From the IMG/VR virus record IMGVR_UViG_3300031537_000002, positions 1 through 44,736 of that record: DNA of 44,736 nucleotides, one strand, 5' to 3'. Source of the DNA: a virus. A program made the position numbers and the translations under genes. The notes under the pieces are model-generated. The model was not told the DNA's origin, did no database searches, and saw only the letters and a list, made by a program, of their open reading frames with translations. The first letter of the stretch is position 1; each line of letters opens with the position of its first letter. Positions 21,367 through 43,189 of this stretch are shown piece after piece.

Positions 21367-22089
21367 TTATACCTCAACCCTTTTCCCTATTTTGTTTAAC
21401 CATTCTCCATAAGTAACAGGAACTCTACAATTTTTATATAAATCATTATTTACTTTATCCTGTTCTTTTAATAATTCAGAAAATTGAATATTTTCTTTAT
21501 TTGGTATCCAATCACCACAGGTTTCTTTTTTTAAACAATCGGCTGTAAAATATGTAGAATTCATTGCAATATTTATAACATCTTTAAAAGCATTTTCATT
21601 ATATAATCCATATTTTGGCTCTTTTTCTTCTGGTTTCTTTTCAAATCTTAGTAATTGTTCGTATGTTAACCGTCTTGTGTTTTCTTTATTAGGGAAATTC
21701 CATGGGCCACAAATATCATTATATTGTATACAGCGTATCAAATCACCTTCTTTAGCGCGTATTTCTAATGTACCTATTCTAAAATCGTTATTAAAATCCT
21801 TTTCAATTCCATGACTGAAACAAATTTCTTGGGATTTTCTTGATTGTTCTTCACTTTCAATCTCTACATAAAACGGAGCGAGTTCTTTTAAATCTGTGAT
21901 TTTTTTACATAACATATAATTAGCGTGATAATATGGATAATTTGGTAATTTAGACTCATTATTAATTACTATTATATAATCATCTATTTTTTTTATTTCT
22001 AATATACCTTTACTTGCATGCATTACAAAATCACCTACTTGAACATCGTGTTTTTTAATCCATTTTTTTTGTTGTTTTTTATATCCCAT
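21367..22089 (-). CDS. Hypothetical accessory protein, paralogue A
   Basis: 240 aa. The N-terminus MGYKKQQKKWIKKHDVQVGD and upstream AAAAGGAGC are the same as in the gene ending at 22223, and the middle (DLKELAPFYVEIES, FSHGIEKD, RRLTYEQLLRFEK) is also shared, so the two are tandem duplicates. The VQVGDFV segment near the N-terminus suggests a small SH3-like/KOW-type beta domain. No family recognised. The C-terminal ~85 residues are unique to this copy. Confidence 0.65.
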   Translation of the reverse strand: MGYKKQQKKWIKKHDVQVGDFVMHASKGILEIKKIDDYIIVINNESKLPNYPYYHANYMLCKKITDLKELAPFYVEIESEEQSRKSQEICFSHGIEKDFNNDFRIGTLEIRAKEGDLIRCIQYNDICGPWNFPNKENTRRLTYEQLLRFEKKPEEKEPKYGLYNENAFKDVINIAMNSTYFTADCLKKETCGDWIPNKENIQFSELLKEQDKVNNDLYKNCRVPVTYGEWLNKIGKRVEV

Positions 22090-22119
22090 TATTTAGCTCC
22101 TTTTAATAAGTAAAATAAT

Positions 22120-22203
22120 TCATAGTATTGAAATAGCAACAAATATAAAACTTAATACTATTACAACTATCATGCCTAAAAAAAATATTCCAAATTCGTC
22201 CAT
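22120..22203 (-). CDS. 27-aa membrane peptide
   Basis: Frame MDEFGIFFLGMIVVIV... is almost entirely one hydrophobic segment. It lies between the duplicated genes with only a weak ribosome site. Could be a real small membrane protein; no family. Confidence 0.35.
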   Translation of the reverse strand: MDEFGIFFLGMIVVIVLSFIFVAISIL

Positions 22204-22222
22204 TTTTAAAACTCATTTTAAA

Positions 22223-22777
22223 TTATTTATTTTTTTTTAATTTTTCACATCTATTTATAATTTCTAATGCAACCTGATTGATTGTTTGAATATCTCGCTG
22301 TAATTGCCCATATACATTTTTTTCAAATCTTAATATTTGATCGTAGGTTAGCTGCCTTGATTCTTCTCTTTCCTGGAAATTATAATATGGGCCACTAAAC
22401 TGTAAACAATATATCTTACAATTTCTATTTCTTATAAAAAGTGTTCCTGATTGAAATTCATCTTTTTCAATTCCATGACTAAAACATATTTCCTGTGCTA
22501 TCATTGATTGTTTTTCACTTTCAATCTCTACATAAAACGGTGCAATTTCTTTTAAGTCTGTGATTTTTTTAATTTCTTTTCTTGAATAACCAAATCCGTT
22601 TCCAAGTATAATAAGCATATTTGTTTTGTCAAAACTTGTAACATTAAATATTTTACCAATAGAATTTTTCTGGTCTTCTATCAAATCATCTTCTGACTGT
22701 TTAATAACCTTAACAAAATCACCTACTTGAACATCGTGTTTTTTAATCCATTTTTTTTGTTGTTTTTTATATCCCAT
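22223..22777 (-). CDS. Hypothetical accessory protein, paralogue B, with capsid-derived C-terminus
   Basis: 184 aa. Residues ~1-155 are the paralogue of the 21367-22089 protein, with identical first ~20 residues and RBS. Right after the shared LRFEK motif the sequence switches to VYGQLQRDIQTINQVALEII, which matches the interior of the major capsid protein (GQLQRDIQTINQAAFNLTNR). DNA at 22247-22311 aligns without gaps to capsid gene DNA at 14481-14545 and is clearly similar by eye. The original C-terminus has therefore been replaced by a piece of the capsid gene. Function unknown. Confidence 0.7.
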   Translation of the reverse strand: MGYKKQQKKWIKKHDVQVGDFVKVIKQSEDDLIEDQKNSIGKIFNVTSFDKTNMLIILGNGFGYSRKEIKKITDLKEIAPFYVEIESEKQSMIAQEICFSHGIEKDEFQSGTLFIRNRNCKIYCLQFSGPYYNFQEREESRQLTYDQILRFEKNVYGQLQRDIQTINQVALEIINRCEKLKKNK

Positions 22778-22822
22778 TATTTAGCTCCTTTTAAATATAC
22801 TTAATTTTTAAATTATTTATAA

Positions 22823-28075: not shown

Positions 28076-28126
28076 AACCGACGCCCGAAGGCGTTTCGTC
28101 GTAATTTTCAAAGACTCATCAGGGTT
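28076..28126 (-). ncRNA. Hammerhead ribozyme (type I)
   Basis: All core parts are present in order on the minus strand: stem I AACC, core CTGATGA, stem II GTC...GAC with a 12-base loop, core GAAA, stem III CGCC-TTCG-GGCG, triplet GTC, then GGTT closing stem I. Cleavage is expected between 28080 and 28079. It begins two bases after the stop of the 22-aa ORF and lies before the gene at 27856-28053, so it would cut that transcript between the two cistrons. Confidence 0.93.
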
Positions 28127-28197: not shown

Positions 28198-28216
28198 ATT
28201 TTTACTCCCAAGTTAA

Positions 28217-28270
28217 ATTACGCTCTGCATTATACGAGGGCTTGCGACACTCCGTTGGCTGCATTACTCA
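28217..28270 (-). ncRNA. Twister ribozyme, copy 1
   Basis: Minus-strand core: TAATGCAGCC, then a P4 loop with GTCGCAAGCCC, then ATAATGCAGAG and GCG. TGCA/TGCA forms P2. The loop CGC pairs with the 3' GCG (pseudoknot T1), where the other two copies have CAC with GTG, a compensating change. Cleavage expected between 28266 and 28265 (T^AA). P1 is weak or absent, as tolerated in known twisters. It follows the stop of the 137-aa gene and a GC hairpin. Confidence 0.88.
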
Positions 28271-28310
28271 CCCAGGTAGCCTAGGACTCGAAAGTCATAG
28301 GCAACCTGGG
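28271..28310 (-). other. GC hairpin protecting the 3' end upstream of twister copy 1
   Basis: CCCAGGT pairs with ACCTGGG, then GCCTA/TAGGC and GACT-TTCG-AGTC, with two mismatches. It begins seven bases after the stop codon and ends five bases before the cleavage site, so it becomes the 3' end of the released mRNA. Confidence 0.8.
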
Positions 28311-28317
28311 AGGGTTA

Positions 28318-28731
28318 TTATTCTTCTGTATCTTCTCTATAATAAGGTGATAATGATCCAGACATGTTTGATTGGGTTACTTTTATTTTTTCACCATTTT
28401 CTAATGCTATTTCATAATTGAAATAATATGCTGGTGAAGGATGTGATAATGAAATTACTTCACCTTCTACTATTTCAAGTTCACATCTGTCATAAAAATC
28501 ATGTTGAAAATTATTACCATCACAATATGAAACAATAATATAATCTCCAAGATATTCATCATATTCGGATTCCAGCAAATCGCCATTTTCGTCAAGGTAT
28601 TCACTCAATGATGATCCGTAAATATCGTCCAATGACCAATCAGCATCAATTGCATCTTCAACGGTCGCTTGTCTTGTATCGTCAGTTGATACATATGTAG
28701 TATAATGTCCTTCAATCTTATAAAATTTCAT
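28318..28731 (-). CDS. Cassette 1 protein (137 aa, acidic)
   Basis: Acidic, Tyr-rich protein (MKFYKIEGHYTTYVSTDDT...). ATG behind TTGGGAG. It is the coding part of the first promoter-hairpin-ORF-hairpin-twister cassette. No family recognised; it looks like a small soluble anti-host or regulatory protein, but that is a guess. Confidence 0.65.
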   Translation of the reverse strand: MKFYKIEGHYTTYVSTDDTRQATVEDAIDADWSLDDIYGSSLSEYLDENGDLLESEYDEYLGDYIIVSYCDGNNFQHDFYDRCELEIVEGEVISLSHPSPAYYFNYEIALENGEKIKVTQSNMSGSLSPYYREDTEE

Positions 28732-28754
28732 ATTATATCTCCCAAGTTTTTGTT

Positions 28755-28808
28755 AAGGCATTAAATACCTTACATTAATAATTATAGTGCATTTTCAAAA
28801 AAAAACAA
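28755..28808 (-). promoter_or_regulatory. Cassette 1 promoter and 5' hairpin
   Basis: TTGTTT (28803-28808), 16-base spacer, TATAAT (28781-28786), then an AAGGTA-TTTAA-TGCCTT hairpin (28755-28771) at the predicted mRNA start. Nearly identical to the plus-strand copies at 38671 and 40448; one hairpin pair changes A-T to G-T, keeping the pairing. Confidence 0.8.
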
Positions 28809-28869: not shown

Positions 28870-28880
28870 AATATTTTATT

Positions 28881-28946
28881 AGACGGTATTGGAAATTGCT
28901 ACAAGTAATACTTGTGTGTAGCCAGGTTCAAGTCCTGGAACAGTCT
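28881..28946 (+). ncRNA. tRNA-like element without D arm
   Basis: The T arm is canonical (CCAGG-TTCAAGT-CCTGG). An anticodon-arm-like helix TACAA/TTGTG encloses a 7-base loop GTAATAC with T in position 33 (nominal anticodon AAT), and a 5-base variable loop follows. AGACGGT pairs with ACAGTCT with one mismatch. Only ~12 bases replace the D arm. It starts ~16 bases after the predicted transcript start and leads into the first early gene. More likely a tRNA-derived leader than a working tRNA. Confidence 0.5.
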
Positions 28947-28963
28947 TTTTGAAGGATAATATT

Positions 28964-38670: not shown

Positions 38671-38724
38671 TTGTTTTTTTTGAAACATGCACTATAATTA
38701 TTAATGTAAGGTAGTTAATACCTT
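38671..38724 (+). promoter_or_regulatory. Cassette 2 promoter and 5' hairpin
   Basis: TTGTTT (38671-38676), 16-base spacer, TATAAT (38693-38698), then AAGGTA-GTTAA-TACCTT (38708-38724). Almost identical to cassettes 1 and 3 up to the RBS (CTTGGGAGGC). Confidence 0.82.
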
Positions 38725-38750
38725 AACATCAAAAGCTTGGGAGGCTTAAT

Positions 38751-38939
38751 ATGACAAAAATAACAAGAAAATTAACAAATGAAGTAATCGATTGGATTAG
38801 ACATTCAAAAGCAGTAAGTAATAATGATAAATCTTTTATGTTACTTGTTGAAAAAGCATATGAATTAAGAGAAGAATTCCAGACAATTCGCGAATGGAAA
38901 GATGCTTTATATTATAATTATAATTTAAAAAACAAATAA
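38751..38939 (+). CDS. Cassette 2 protein (62 aa, helical)
   Basis: Begins MTKITRKLTNEVIDWIRHSK. Helical and charged, unrelated to the proteins of cassettes 1 and 3 although all flanks are the same. No family. Confidence 0.6.
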   Translation: MTKITRKLTNEVIDWIRHSKAVSNNDKSFMLLVEKAYELREEFQTIREWKDALYYNYNLKNK

Positions 38940-38945
38940 AACCAT

Positions 38946-38984
38946 CCCATGTTGCTAGTACCTTCGGGCCCCGGGCTATCTGGG
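38946..38984 (+). other. GC hairpin upstream of twister copy 2
   Basis: CCCA...TGGG ends pair around a CC-TTCG-GG tip. Less perfect than copies 1 and 3. Starts 7 bases after the stop, ends 5 bases before the cleavage site. Confidence 0.7.
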
Positions 38985-39036
38985 TGAGTAATGCAGCCAA
39001 CGGCTGTCACAAGCCCGCGTGTAATGCAGAGTGATT
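38985..39036 (+). ncRNA. Twister ribozyme, copy 2
   Basis: Core TAATGCAGCC, then TGTCACAAGCCC, then GTAATGCAGAG and GTGA. P2 is TGCA/TGCA; T1 is TCAC with GTGA. Cleavage expected between 38989 and 38990. The downstream product keeps the ribozyme as its 5' end, immediately before GAGGAG and the ATG at 39050. Confidence 0.9.
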
Positions 39037-39049
39037 GAGGAGTTTTGAA

Positions 39050-39295
39050 ATGACAACAACTAACTATTATGATGACAATAACGACGTTACATGTACTGAG
39101 GTATTCGATAATGATCGTATAGTAAAAAGAATTACTGGTGATTTCACAGAAGAATATATCAGGGATGAAAGCGGAATGATCATAGAATACAAATCAAGTG
39201 ATGGCTATTCAAATAAATTAAACAAGACTTCATTTGATGAAGTTATAGATGAATTCGAAAATAATAAAGCTGTATTGCAGGTGACAAAAAGATGA
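39050..39295 (+). CDS. Hypothetical acidic protein (81 aa)
   Basis: ATG 39050 behind GAGGAG, only 13 bases after the twister. Beta-type, acidic (TNYYDDNNDVTCTEVFDND). First cistron of the ribozyme's 3' product. No family. Confidence 0.6.
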   Translation: MTTTNYYDDNNDVTCTEVFDNDRIVKRITGDFTEEYIRDESGMIIEYKSSDGYSNKLNKTSFDEVIDEFENNKAVLQVTKR

Positions 39296-39630
39296 GTAGT
39301 TCAAATATTGAAGATATAATATATCAAGAAATAGAATCTTATTTAGATAACATCGAAATGGTTATTGATAAAGATTGGCCGAGTGTAGAAAACACAGAAA
39401 GTTATTTATCCGGTCAAATATCAGGTCAGAAATATACATTCTTATTTATCGCTAGTTTAATGGTTTTTAATGAATCAGATATCAGGGAAATTATCAATGA
39501 TAATTACGGGCTATATTTTGATGAAAAAATCAATACTTATTTCTATTTTGATCCAATAGAGATTGAAAGAAATATTTACTTTGAAAGAGACGGAAACGAT
39601 TTAAATATTTATATAGAAATTTTTATTTAA
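39292..39630 (+). CDS. Hypothetical acidic protein (112 aa)
   Basis: Overlaps the previous stop (ATGA). Acidic, Tyr/Ile-rich; contains SYLSGQISGQKYTFLFIASL. No family. Confidence 0.55.
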   Translation: MSSSNIEDIIYQEIESYLDNIEMVIDKDWPSVENTESYLSGQISGQKYTFLFIASLMVFNESDIREIINDNYGLYFDEKINTYFYFDPIEIERNIYFERDGNDLNIYIEIFI

Positions 39631-39639
39631 GGAGCTTTT

Positions 39640-40416
39640 ATGAAACAAATAACTTTAAAATGGTTAAAAGACAATAACGCCTGTTATTCAGGAATTAAAT
39701 TCTATGAAAAAACAAAAATAACAGACCCGTTAAAATTGTTTAAAATTGCAATGGAAAATAAAAGATACGATGATGTAAACTGGGGAATATCAAAATATCT
39801 TAATAAAAAACAAAAAGTTATGTATGCTGTATTTGCTGCAGAACACGTAGTTGAGTTATATGAAAAAAAATATCCAACCGATAACAGACCAAGAAATGCT
39901 ATTGAGGCAGCAAAAAAATATATACAAAAACAAACAAAGAAAAATAAAATTTATGCTGCTGCTGCTGCTGCTGATGCTTATGCTGCTGCTGATGCTGCTG
40001 CTGATGCTGATGATGCTTATGCTGCTTATGCTGCTGATGCTGCTGCTAATGCTGCTGATGCTGATGCTGCTGCTGCTGCTGCTAATGCTGCTGATGCTGC
40101 TGCTGCTGATGCTGATGCTGCTGATGCTAAAGAAAAAATGAAAATAAAAATATTAAATTATGGGTTTAGTTTAATAAAGGAGCTATCAATGAGTGATTTT
40201 AATTACGATTATAACAAAGAAATTGAAGAGTTAAAAAACATGATTATGTATCTGGATGATCAAAAAAACGTTCATGATTTACTTTCTCTTCAGTCTGAAG
40301 TTAACAAACAGTTTGCAAATTTAATCCAAATGAAAATAAGCCATGATTATGAGTTGATCCAGGAAAAAGTTGACGATATTACAAACGGTTTGTTTTCTGA
40401 ACATTTTAGTGAATAA
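39640..40416 (+). CDS. Ala-rich repeat protein fused to a second module
   Basis: 258 aa behind AAGGAGC. Residues ~1-103 end in RPRNAIEAAKKYIQK, the start of a phage family with Ala-rich helical tails. Residues ~104-163 are Ala/Asp/Tyr/Asn only, coded by GCT/GAT triplets. After a short basic link an in-frame AAAGGAGC and ATG (40189) begin a 75-aa acidic coiled module (MSDFNYDYNKEIEEL). Both other frames have stops (TAG, TAATAA) just before that site, so two genes may have been joined by an indel. Confidence 0.6.
   Translation: MKQITLKWLKDNNACYSGIKFYEKTKITDPLKLFKIAMENKRYDDVNWGISKYLNKKQKVMYAVFAAEHVVELYEKKYPTDNRPRNAIEAAKKYIQKQTKKNKIYAAAAAADAYAAADAAADADDAYAAYAADAAANAADADAAAAAANAADAAAADADAADAKEKMKIKILNYGFSLIKELSMSDFNYDYNKEIEELKNMIMYLDDQKNVHDLLSLQSEVNKQFANLIQMKISHDYELIQEKVDDITNGLFSEHFSE
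39951..40128 (+). repeat. GCT/GAT trinucleotide tract
   Basis: About 178 bases of almost pure GCT, GAT and TAT-type triplets coding Ala/Asp/Tyr. Prone to slippage; length changes in threes keep the frame, others would not. Confidence 0.85.
40189..40416 (+). CDS. Internal ORF with its own RBS (75 aa)
   Basis: In frame with the Ala-rich gene. AAAGGAGC lies 6 bases before the ATG at 40189, as good as any site in the genome, so this module is probably also made separately. Confidence 0.5.
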   Translation: MSDFNYDYNKEIEELKNMIMYLDDQKNVHDLLSLQSEVNKQFANLIQMKISHDYELIQEKVDDITNGLFSEHFSE

Positions 40417-40447
40417 TTAAAAAAAATAAAAAAAAATAAAAAAAATA

Positions 40448-40502
40448 TTGTTTTTTTTTTGAAAATGCACTATAATTATTAATGTAAGGTAGTTAATACC
40501 TT
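40448..40502 (+). promoter_or_regulatory. Cassette 3 promoter and 5' hairpin
   Basis: TTGTTT (40448-40453), 17-base spacer, TATAAT (40471-40476), hairpin AAGGTA-GTTAA-TACCTT (40486-40502). From here to the start codon it is identical to cassette 2. Confidence 0.82.
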
Positions 40503-40528
40503 AACATCAAAAGCTTGGGAGGCTTAAT

Positions 40529-40759
40529 ATGAGTATAGTAACAAAAAAAGAACTTATAAGAATAGTAAGAGACGTAATGTCTGGTAGATCAAGTCATAAT
40601 ATCGGTAACTTCAGAAGAATCAAAAGAGGAAAATGGGAAGTTGAAACAACAATAGGTAATCAATATCCTTTTGATTCTAATTCTTCAAACTGGGCTAATT
40701 TTAGATATGATAGAAACGAAATGACATTAAAAGAAGCGAAAGAATATATAGATGCATAA
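40529..40759 (+). CDS. Cassette 3 protein (76 aa, basic)
   Basis: Begins MSIVTKKELIRIVRDVMSGR; basic middle (GNFRRIKRGKWEVETTIG). Unrelated to the other cassette proteins. Could bind nucleic acid by charge; no family. Confidence 0.6.
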   Translation: MSIVTKKELIRIVRDVMSGRSSHNIGNFRRIKRGKWEVETTIGNQYPFDSNSSNWANFRYDRNEMTLKEAKEYIDA

Positions 40760-40767
40760 TAAACCCT

Positions 40768-40807
40768 CCCAGGTTGCCTAGGACTTTCGGGCCCCGGACT
40801 ATCTGGG
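40768..40807 (+). other. GC hairpin upstream of twister copy 3
   Basis: CCCAGGT pairs with ATCTGGG, with a GC-rich TTCG-tipped upper part. Same spacing to stop codon and cleavage site as copy 1. Confidence 0.78.
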
Positions 40808-40859
40808 TGAGTAATGCAGCCAGCGGCGGTCACAAGCCCGCGTGTAATGCAGAGTGATT
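40808..40859 (+). ncRNA. Twister ribozyme, copy 3
   Basis: Core TAATGCAGCC, then CGGTCACAAGCCCG, then GTAATGCAGAG and GTGA, nearly identical to copy 2. Cleavage expected between 40812 and 40813. GAGGAG follows but without an ATG at the right distance, so this copy has lost or never had a directly following gene. Confidence 0.9.
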
Positions 40860-40925
40860 GAGGAGTTAATAGCCTGTGTATCAGGTTAAAATAATAAACG
40901 GTTTTAAGCAGACTACAACAACACG

Positions 40926-40944
40926 GCCTCTTTAATTAGAGGCT
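40926..40944 (+). other. Hairpin in the leader of the 40967 gene
   Basis: GCCTCT/AGAGGC over TTAATT, followed by TGTTATTT. An alternative outer pairing TAATAGCC/GGCTGTTA (40867-40874 with 40941-40948) competes with it. A second hairpin, CCTG-TGTAT-CAGG, lies at 40873-40885. Could be an attenuator or leader structure. Confidence 0.4.
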
Positions 40945-40966
40945 GTTATTTAATTAAGGAATTGAA

Positions 40967-42211: not shown

Positions 42212-43189
42212 ATGAAAGCTTATAAGGTTTTTGATTATGAATGGAAATGCAGGGGATTCCAATATGAAGTTGGCAAAGAATATAAACATGATGGTGATAT
42301 AATGCTTTGTAAATCTGGGTTTCATGCATGTTTAAAGTTGTCTGATTGTTTTTCTTATTATAATTTTGATCCTGAAAACAAAGTTGCAGAAGTTGAAATT
42401 ATCGGGAAAAGACTTTTAAATGATAATGATTCTAAAATTGTAACTGATCAAATTAAAATAATTAAAGAATTAACATGGAGTGAAGTTTTGTCGCTGTGTA
42501 ATACAGGAATAGAAAACACTGGATTTAAAAATTCAGGCGATTACAATTTAGGTCATCACAATTCAGGTCATTGCAATTCAGGTCGTTACAATTCAGGTTA
42601 TTACAATTCAGGCGATTACAATTCAGGTAGTTACAATTCAGGCGATCACAATTCAGCTCATTACAATTCAGGTCATCACAATTCAGGCGATCACAATTCA
42701 GGTAGTTACAATTCAGGCTATTACAATTCAGGTCATCACAATTCAGATCATCACAATTCAGGCGATCACAATTCAGGTCGTTACAATTCAGGTTATTACA
42801 ATTCAGGCGATCACAATTCAGGTAGTTACAATTCAGGTTATTACAATTCAGGCGATCACAATTCAGGTAGTTACAATTCAGGCGATTACAATTCAGGTGT
42901 TTTTAATTATTTTAATCCAGAAAAAATATACTGTTTTGATAAATTATTGTCTTTTGATGAGTTCGAAAAAATTATTAAAAGTGAAGGATACGAAATAATA
43001 AAAAGAAAATTTAAATTAGTAAAATTTAGATCGAAAAGCATTAAAAGTGGATCATTTAAATATTTTTCTTATAAATCATGTTGGAAAATATTTTGGAATA
43101 ATTTAAAAGCAAATGAAAAACTTAAAATAAAAAAAATACCATTTATGGAAAAAGATGTATTTTTTGATATAACTGGTATAAAATTATAA
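42212..43189 (+). CDS. Pentapeptide-type YNSG repeat protein
   Basis: 325 aa behind AAAGGAG. The N-terminal CRGFQYEVGKEYKHDGDI and CKSGFHACLKL match a phage family of short globular heads. Residues ~105-230 are about 24 five-residue repeats of the form x(Y/H)NSG, like Pentapeptide_2 (NxG) repeats. A basic C-terminal ~95 residues follow. Such repeats form regular beta solenoids. Role unknown. It is the last gene before the converging operons. Confidence 0.7.
   Translation: MKAYKVFDYEWKCRGFQYEVGKEYKHDGDIMLCKSGFHACLKLSDCFSYYNFDPENKVAEVEIIGKRLLNDNDSKIVTDQIKIIKELTWSEVLSLCNTGIENTGFKNSGDYNLGHHNSGHCNSGRYNSGYYNSGDYNSGSYNSGDHNSAHYNSGHHNSGDHNSGSYNSGYYNSGHHNSDHHNSGDHNSGRYNSGYYNSGDHNSGSYNSGYYNSGDHNSGSYNSGDYNSGVFNYFNPEKIYCFDKLLSFDEFEKIIKSEGYEIIKRKFKLVKFRSKSIKSGSFKYFSYKSCWKIFWNNLKANEKLKIKKIPFMEKDVFFDITGIKL
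42535..42900 (+). repeat. 15-base tandem repeat array within the YNSG gene
   Basis: About 24 copies of a 15-base unit (CACAATTCAGGTCAT-type). Only the bases coding the first two residues vary (TA/CA, GA/CA/AG). Copy number could change by recombination without frameshift. Confidence 0.88.

Follow-up and report, generated by a model that had tools for sequence, protein, structure and literature searches.

Exchangeable small genes in a tailed phage between a promoter-leader and a hairpin-twister pair with a predicted role in operon splitting

At three places in one phage genome, nearly the same sequences flank a small open reading frame (ORF), and each time the ORF is a different one. What is such a unit for, and why does it end in a self-cleaving ribozyme? 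The genome is virus record IMGVR_UViG_3300031537_000002, the whole 44,736 nucleotides of which were analysed here (the window), a 44.7-kb tailed-phage record of 29.6% GC from a viral contig collection. The units, which we call cassettes, lie at 28.2-28.8 kb on the minus strand (c28) and at 38.67-39.04 kb (c38) and 40.45-40.87 kb (c40) on the plus strand, where an earlier sequence-only reading of the record had placed three copies. We consider it somewhat probable that the cassette is a mobile gene slot in which a 3' hairpin and a twister ribozyme devoid of its P1 stem would act as a terminator substitute, with cleavage, RNA ends and stability as predictions.

Genes are exchanged between conserved flanks

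From 5' to 3', each cassette consists of a TATAAT -10 box, a leader with a 5' hairpin, the Shine-Dalgarno (SD) sequence CUUGGGAG, a small ORF, a hairpin with a UUCG loop and a twister. Between the -10 box and the ATG, identity is 99% for c38 with c40 and 87-88% for c28 with either of them; among the three copies it amounts to 85-96% in the twister cores and 76-85% in the 3' hairpin segments. The ORFs encode 137 (c28; 28318..28731), 62 (c38; 38751..38939) and 76 amino acids (c40; 40529..40759) and are unrelated, as had been claimed, their nucleotide identity being no higher than that of shuffled AT-rich sequence (57% both for ORF62 with ORF76 and after shuffling). None of the three belongs to a significant Pfam or PHROGs family. 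The structure model of ORF137 is too poor for use (pLDDT 50), and that of ORF76 (pLDDT 70) resembles no PDB entry significantly.

Two related contigs, G001 (61.9 kb) and G002 (44.2 kb), were compared with the window; G002 is colinear with it and mostly more than 90% identical where aligned. A search of these relatives for the cassette flanks found them around other ORFs, which bears out the proposed swapping of genes between conserved flanks. In G001, an ORF76 relative (94% nucleotide identity) lies in c28-type flanks, termed type A, whose leader and twister are 97% and 100% identical to those of c28, and a relative of ORF137 (91%) lies in flanks of the other type, type B, whose leader and twister are 94% and 93% identical to those of c40, so that ORF similarity crosses flank similarity. 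A scan of the viral contig collection revealed no relative of ORF137 beyond G001. At the site orthologous to c38, leader, hairpin, twister and downstream genes recur in G002 (95% identical), but the ORF is an unrelated one of 75 amino acids. Whole cassettes are also gained or lost. The c40 cassette, a unit of 456 nt (40416..40871, plus strand; ends ambiguous by a shared AATA), is absent from G002, where the sequence runs uninterrupted through a clean empty site with AATA at the joint; the unit extends from the promoter to just past the ribozyme, and its borders match those of the c38/c40 repeats. At the 28-kb site of G002 there are a promoter-leader, a 50-amino-acid ORF and a hammerhead ribozyme, and the hairpin and twister are missing.

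The -10 boxes (c28, 28781..28786; c38, 38693..38698; c40, 40471..40476; all read directly) are the same in the three cassettes and in G001. The promoter had been described as fixed, which holds for the -10 region and the leader but not for the upstream (-35) half, which is genome-specific across the relatives. Promoters of one genome tend to resemble each other in the upstream half more than they resemble those of another genome, and ORFs thus appear to move into resident flanks. G001 encodes a sigma-70-like phage factor with regions 2, 3 and 4 (L137:3935-4849). Two G001 cassettes follow it directly, and the -35 half of their promoters is a different one. A phage sigma factor was rejected as the explanation of the promoter, being present in G001 and not found in the window or G002.

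We infer that exchange and gain or loss proceed by recombination in the flanks. This raises an alternative in which the flanks are kept mainly as recombination anchors for accessory genes, comparable to the PeSL cassettes of T4, with the ribozyme as a passenger or a tolerated 3' end. It would account for the ORF swaps and the empty site, for promoters that look homogenised within each genome and for promoter-leader copies that have no ribozyme, and the phage encodes recombination genes (exonuclease, SSB, a NinB/Orf mediator and a Holliday junction resolvase). An anchor, however, has no need of the compensatory changes that keep the T1 and P4 pairings of the twister, nor does it explain why the hairpin-twister layout recurs in many other contigs whose flanks are unrelated. 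On balance we regard this alternative as unlikely, while giving it more weight than the others discussed below.

In T4-type PeSL cassettes, conserved promoter and stem-loop flanks mediate the shuffling of small genes (Arbiol 2010; Comeau 2014, cited in PMC4503421). Going by the account in that citing paper, the cassettes described here share the conserved promoter and stem-loop flanks and the shuffling of genes among relatives. They differ in that they occur in unrelated, smaller phages, in that the unit ends in a hairpin plus a self-cleaving ribozyme, in that this hairpin lacks a terminator U-tract and is not an intrinsic terminator, and in that the swap concerns the ORF itself, enclosed by leader and hairpin. 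No T4-like features were found among the genes scanned in this 44.7-kb phage, which has a DnaB-like helicase and a sigma70-like -10 box. Phage morons are small genes with their own promoter that are gained or lost between genes conserved in relatives. Like a moron, c40 has its own promoter and is present or absent between close relatives; unlike a moron, which uses a terminator, the cassette would owe its 3' end to a ribozyme, and read-through is expected.

Twisters at the cassette ends

A search of the window against Rfam at the gathering threshold gave no match. With permissive settings, the type P1 twister family (RF03160) matched c40 with 40.2 bits and c38 with 33.3 bits, both below its gathering score of 67.2. 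Other phage twisters were collected by their core pattern from more than 100 contigs (137 nonredundant copies), and a covariance model, R1, was trained on 60 aligned phage twisters, none of them from the window's phage group. R1 identified exactly three sites in the window, all at cassette ends, and exactly six in the 150,770 bases of the window plus two relatives, the other three being the cassette ends of the relatives. The c28 twister (28215..28272, minus strand; core 28223-28266) scored 39.9 bits (E 9e-10), that of c38 (38983..39039, plus strand; core 38989-39031) 50.5 bits (E 3e-13) and that of c40 (40806..40862, plus strand; core 40812-40854) 56.5 bits (E 3e-15), with predicted cuts at U28266/A28265, U38989/A38990 and U40812/A40813, respectively. 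The ribozyme had been said to begin just after each stop codon; a twister is present in each case, but its cleavage site lies 50-55 nt past the stop, with the 3' hairpin in between.

In the 60 aligned twisters, 86.7% of structure cells are paired, against 65% in shuffles, and the covariation score is 0.547 against 0.141 shuffled (0 of 500 shuffles as high), with T1 98% paired. Of the 137 nonredundant copies, 131 have both base pairs of the T1 pseudoknot, with many different dinucleotides in use. Within the cassette family, T1 varies on both sides from CA/UG to CG/CG, and P4 varies on both sides from GCG/CGC to GAG/CUC, with one mismatch in c38; it is c28 that carries the compensating T1 CG/CG and P4 GAG/CUC relative to c38 and c40. 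The UAA cleavage motif (cut after the U), P2 and the CAAGCC and GAG residues are conserved in all six copies from the window and its relatives; for the T2 pseudoknot, conservation is seen in the core letters. By their sequence, the cassette ends thus carry real twister ribozymes, and the cassette parts belong to known classes. In comparison with RF03160, they share the UAA motif, P2, P4, T1 and the CAAGCC plus GAG core, but they have no P1, score below the gathering threshold and are preceded by a tight UUCG hairpin that ends 4 nt 5' of the cleavage-site U. Rfam gathering thresholds hence miss the twisters of the window's phage group.

The 3' hairpins (c28, 28271..28310; c38, 38946..38984; c40, 40768..40807) show compensatory changes among the copies, and their fold energies are -27.1 (c28), -10.3 (c38) and -15.6 (c40) kcal/mol. 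The leader hairpins are of type A in c28 (28754..28772; UAAGGUA UUUAA UGCCUUA) and of type B in c38 (38704..38729; -8.4 kcal/mol) and c40 (40482..40507), and are both conserved among the copies and predicted by folding. Each leader is followed by the SD and start codon, at 28729..28746 in c28 (CTTGGGAG...ATG), 38736..38753 in c38 and 40514..40531 in c40.

At least 119 stretches have TGCA as P2, whereas a search with another P2 retrieved a single contig, so that phage twisters look almost invariant for TGCA. The cassette region had no BLAST match among named phages, and a 49-nt twister query against the same phages retrieved two unannotated faecal records only. The sole genome-contig match to a family flank, in Marinomonas (L144), lies inside a chromosomal ORF and was dismissed as chance.

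Hairpin-twister layout and predicted function

If the hairpin and twister work as a pair, the pair might be expected elsewhere. We tested the layout on one locus per contig with the cassette family excluded, scoring a strong hairpin that ends no more than 6 nt from P1. Such a hairpin abuts P1 in 71 of 107 other contigs, compared with 35 of 307 (11%) far-upstream windows (p 7e-27); a U-rich tail follows the abutting hairpin in 6 of the 107. Of the 137 twisters, 101 lie between a stop codon (median 27 nt before) and an SD with start codon (median 31 nt after). The order of stop codon, strong hairpin, twister and next-gene SD is therefore general in phages, and the adjoining 3' hairpin that had been noted in the window is real there and recurs well outside it. 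From this we tentatively propose, at somewhat less than even confidence, that phages widely use a hairpin plus a self-cleaving ribozyme to divide operons into mRNAs that are stabilised individually; in the cassettes, the pair would bound a plug-in slot, with P1 replaced by the abutting hairpin. In one unrelated phage (L019), four hairpin-twister-leader repeats, 78-95% identical past the core, stand before different ORFs. Three of the other-contig loci resemble prophages of isolate genomes and have no relative among named phages, so that they yielded no cultured phage for tests.

The position of the twister before the next gene suggests another function, namely that the ribozyme mainly serves the downstream gene by trimming its 5' end, leaving a 5'-OH that is closed to pyrophosphate-dependent decay and freeing the SD, with the hairpin as an insulator only. 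In L054, L084 and others, AGGAGG overlaps the 3' strand of P1, and P1 would therefore mask the SD of the next gene until cleavage. The SD of the gene downstream of c38 (GAGGAG, directly past the ribozyme; gene at 39050..39295, plus strand, with an orthologue 95% identical in G002) begins within about 10 nt of the core, and the median of 31 nt to the next start also fits. By contrast, c40 has no following gene for about 110 nt, strong hairpins often adjoin the upstream side across phages, and the loss of P1 in the cassettes leaves no masking of the SD. We judge this function unlikely as the main one, a little more so than the anchor role. The genes flanking L084 and L054 look Mu-like by reading, in agreement with a published link between twisters and Mu-like phages (PMC10085705).

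For the favoured role as a terminator substitute, we propose the following course. Transcription would start just 5' of the leader hairpin and run through the cassette into downstream genes. At c28 and c38 there is no intrinsic terminator between the cassette ORF and the next gene, and the cassette hairpins give no terminator-like match on their own strand; the downstream genes are thus probably cotranscribed and then cut apart, and the claim that the small mRNAs are separately controlled stands only in part. Judging from fold and conservation, the twister would cut between U and A about 5 nt past the hairpin. The upstream product would be a small mRNA with hairpins at its 5' and 3' ends and a 2',3'-cyclic phosphate, and the downstream product an mRNA that begins with 5'-OH-A and carries first the ribozyme body, then an SD. 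The hairpin-ribozyme pair would replace a terminator or an RNase III site; any ORF could then be plugged in, with its own mRNA half-life and without silencing its neighbours. An mRNA with a stable 3' hairpin whose 5' end is base-paired should decay more slowly, and the 5' end of an mRNA affects decay by RNase E (PMC3997798). The host may matter for the fate of the downstream mRNA, since 5'-OH ends can attract RNase J in hosts that possess it (PMC3997798). In summary, the anatomy of the cassettes, the conservation of their folds, the exchange of ORFs and the gain or loss of whole units are shown; cleavage, the RNA ends, stability and insulation are what we infer, and a role of the cassettes in stability and control is plausible.

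T7 early mRNA is a long transcript that RNase III cuts between genes, giving mRNAs with a stable 3' hairpin. The predicted cut in the cassettes would instead be encoded in cis by the ribozyme and require no host enzyme, and its ends would be 5'-OH and cyclic phosphate. Synthetic insulators of the RiboJ type combine a self-cleaving ribozyme with a hairpin and render expression independent of neighbouring sequence. The cassettes suggest a natural counterpart, with the difference that their hairpin lies 5' of the cut and ends the upstream mRNA.

Several observations weigh against the proposed role. The leader hairpin shows no covariation among the cassette copies. A promoter-leader copy without hairpin and twister is present once in G001 and once in G002, so the ribozyme is not obligatory. 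Any post-stop hairpin is found in 85% of cases with a twister and also in 48% of comparable twister-free intergenic regions; the enrichment thus lies in the position of the hairpin more than in its presence. In each of the six copies P1 has few pairs or none, and c38 combines a weak 3' hairpin, degraded according to its modelled fold, with the P4 mismatch, and some copies may therefore be slow or dead. Taken further, the cores may be decaying ribozymes that no longer cut and act as structured 3' untranslated regions. The unpaired P1 and the damage in c38 would agree with this, but none of the six copies has lost its conserved core letters or T1, and according to a review a twister can do without P1 in vitro, cleaving at a near wild-type rate in its absence, although P1 is phylogenetically conserved (PMC5408937). 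We thus consider general decay quite improbable, and the cassette twister may be a natural mini-twister for which cleavage is predicted.

The remaining point concerns translation. The 5' arm of the 3' hairpin (CCUCCCAGG) is complementary to the SD of its own cassette (CUUGGGAGG) over about nine pairs, and in c38, c40 and the G002 copy this long-range pairing is predicted with a probability of 0.9-1.0 (three of six cassettes); it could lower, rather than protect, expression. One could envisage a hok-like translational brake set or released by cleavage or by hairpin formation, and of 129 other leaders of the three phages, 97-100% pair less well with the arm than the cassette's own does. In c28 and the two copies of G001, however, the pairing is weaker (0.17-0.59). 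Cleavage need not switch it, since the cut falls downstream of the arm, and six related copies amount to about one observation. A brake operated in this way seems to us very improbable; according to the folding model, the complementarity itself could brake translation or be accidental, the arm being anti-SD-like.

The reason for the association of twister and hammerhead ribozymes with phage genes is still unexplained (PMC10085705), and their roles are largely speculative (PMC5408937). The repeated, gene-swapped cassette, together with the layout in about 100 other phage contigs, points to a testable role in splitting operons and capping 3' ends with hairpins; if this is true, hairpin plus ribozyme would stand in for terminators or RNase III sites across phages. 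The literature searched holds no description of a ribozyme-bounded exchangeable slot or of the hairpin-abutting layout; the original twister and PeSL papers lay outside that search, and an earlier mention is possible.

Hammerhead ribozyme and neighbouring features

A second ribozyme class is also intergenic in the c28 operon, which fits the proposed splitting role. A hammerhead core with stems I, II and III of 4, 3 and 6 pairs lies at 28076..28126 on the minus strand, after a short ORF that follows the c28 twister. It is the single match of a strict motif scan in the window, with one match per relative, always in the same neighbourhood, and has the CUGAUGA/GAAA core, stems I-III and an NUH site. 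In the G001 copy, stem III has another sequence and still pairs. Compared with type I and RAGATH-1 hammerheads, it shares CUGAUGA, GAAA, stems I-III and the GUC/GUA cleavage triplet, but scores below the Rfam threshold for RAGATH-1 (RF03152; 36.4 bits and E 0.022 for the G001 copy, gathering score 56.3 bits). G001 further has a DUF3800-VIII RNA above the Rfam threshold (57.3 bits) at L137:63-126.

Near c28, a tRNA-like stretch at 28880-28950 has a good T-arm (CCAGGTTCAAGTCCTGG) and is not called by ARAGORN; it is possibly a degenerate tRNA. Downstream of c40, a terminator-like hairpin at 40923-40946 is conserved in G002. Between c38 and c40, a 258-amino-acid ORF contains an Ala/Asp-rich GCT/GAT repeat (39954-40136); its N-terminal part is absent from G002, where the C-terminal part (MSDFNYDYNKEIEE) alone makes up the gene. 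A repeat with a 15-nt period and 23 copies (42425-42964) gives a 325-amino-acid ORF a collagen-like or fibre-like appearance. Near-duplicate blocks at 21796-22794, 664-688 nt apart and 88-100% identical, indicate a recent gene duplication.

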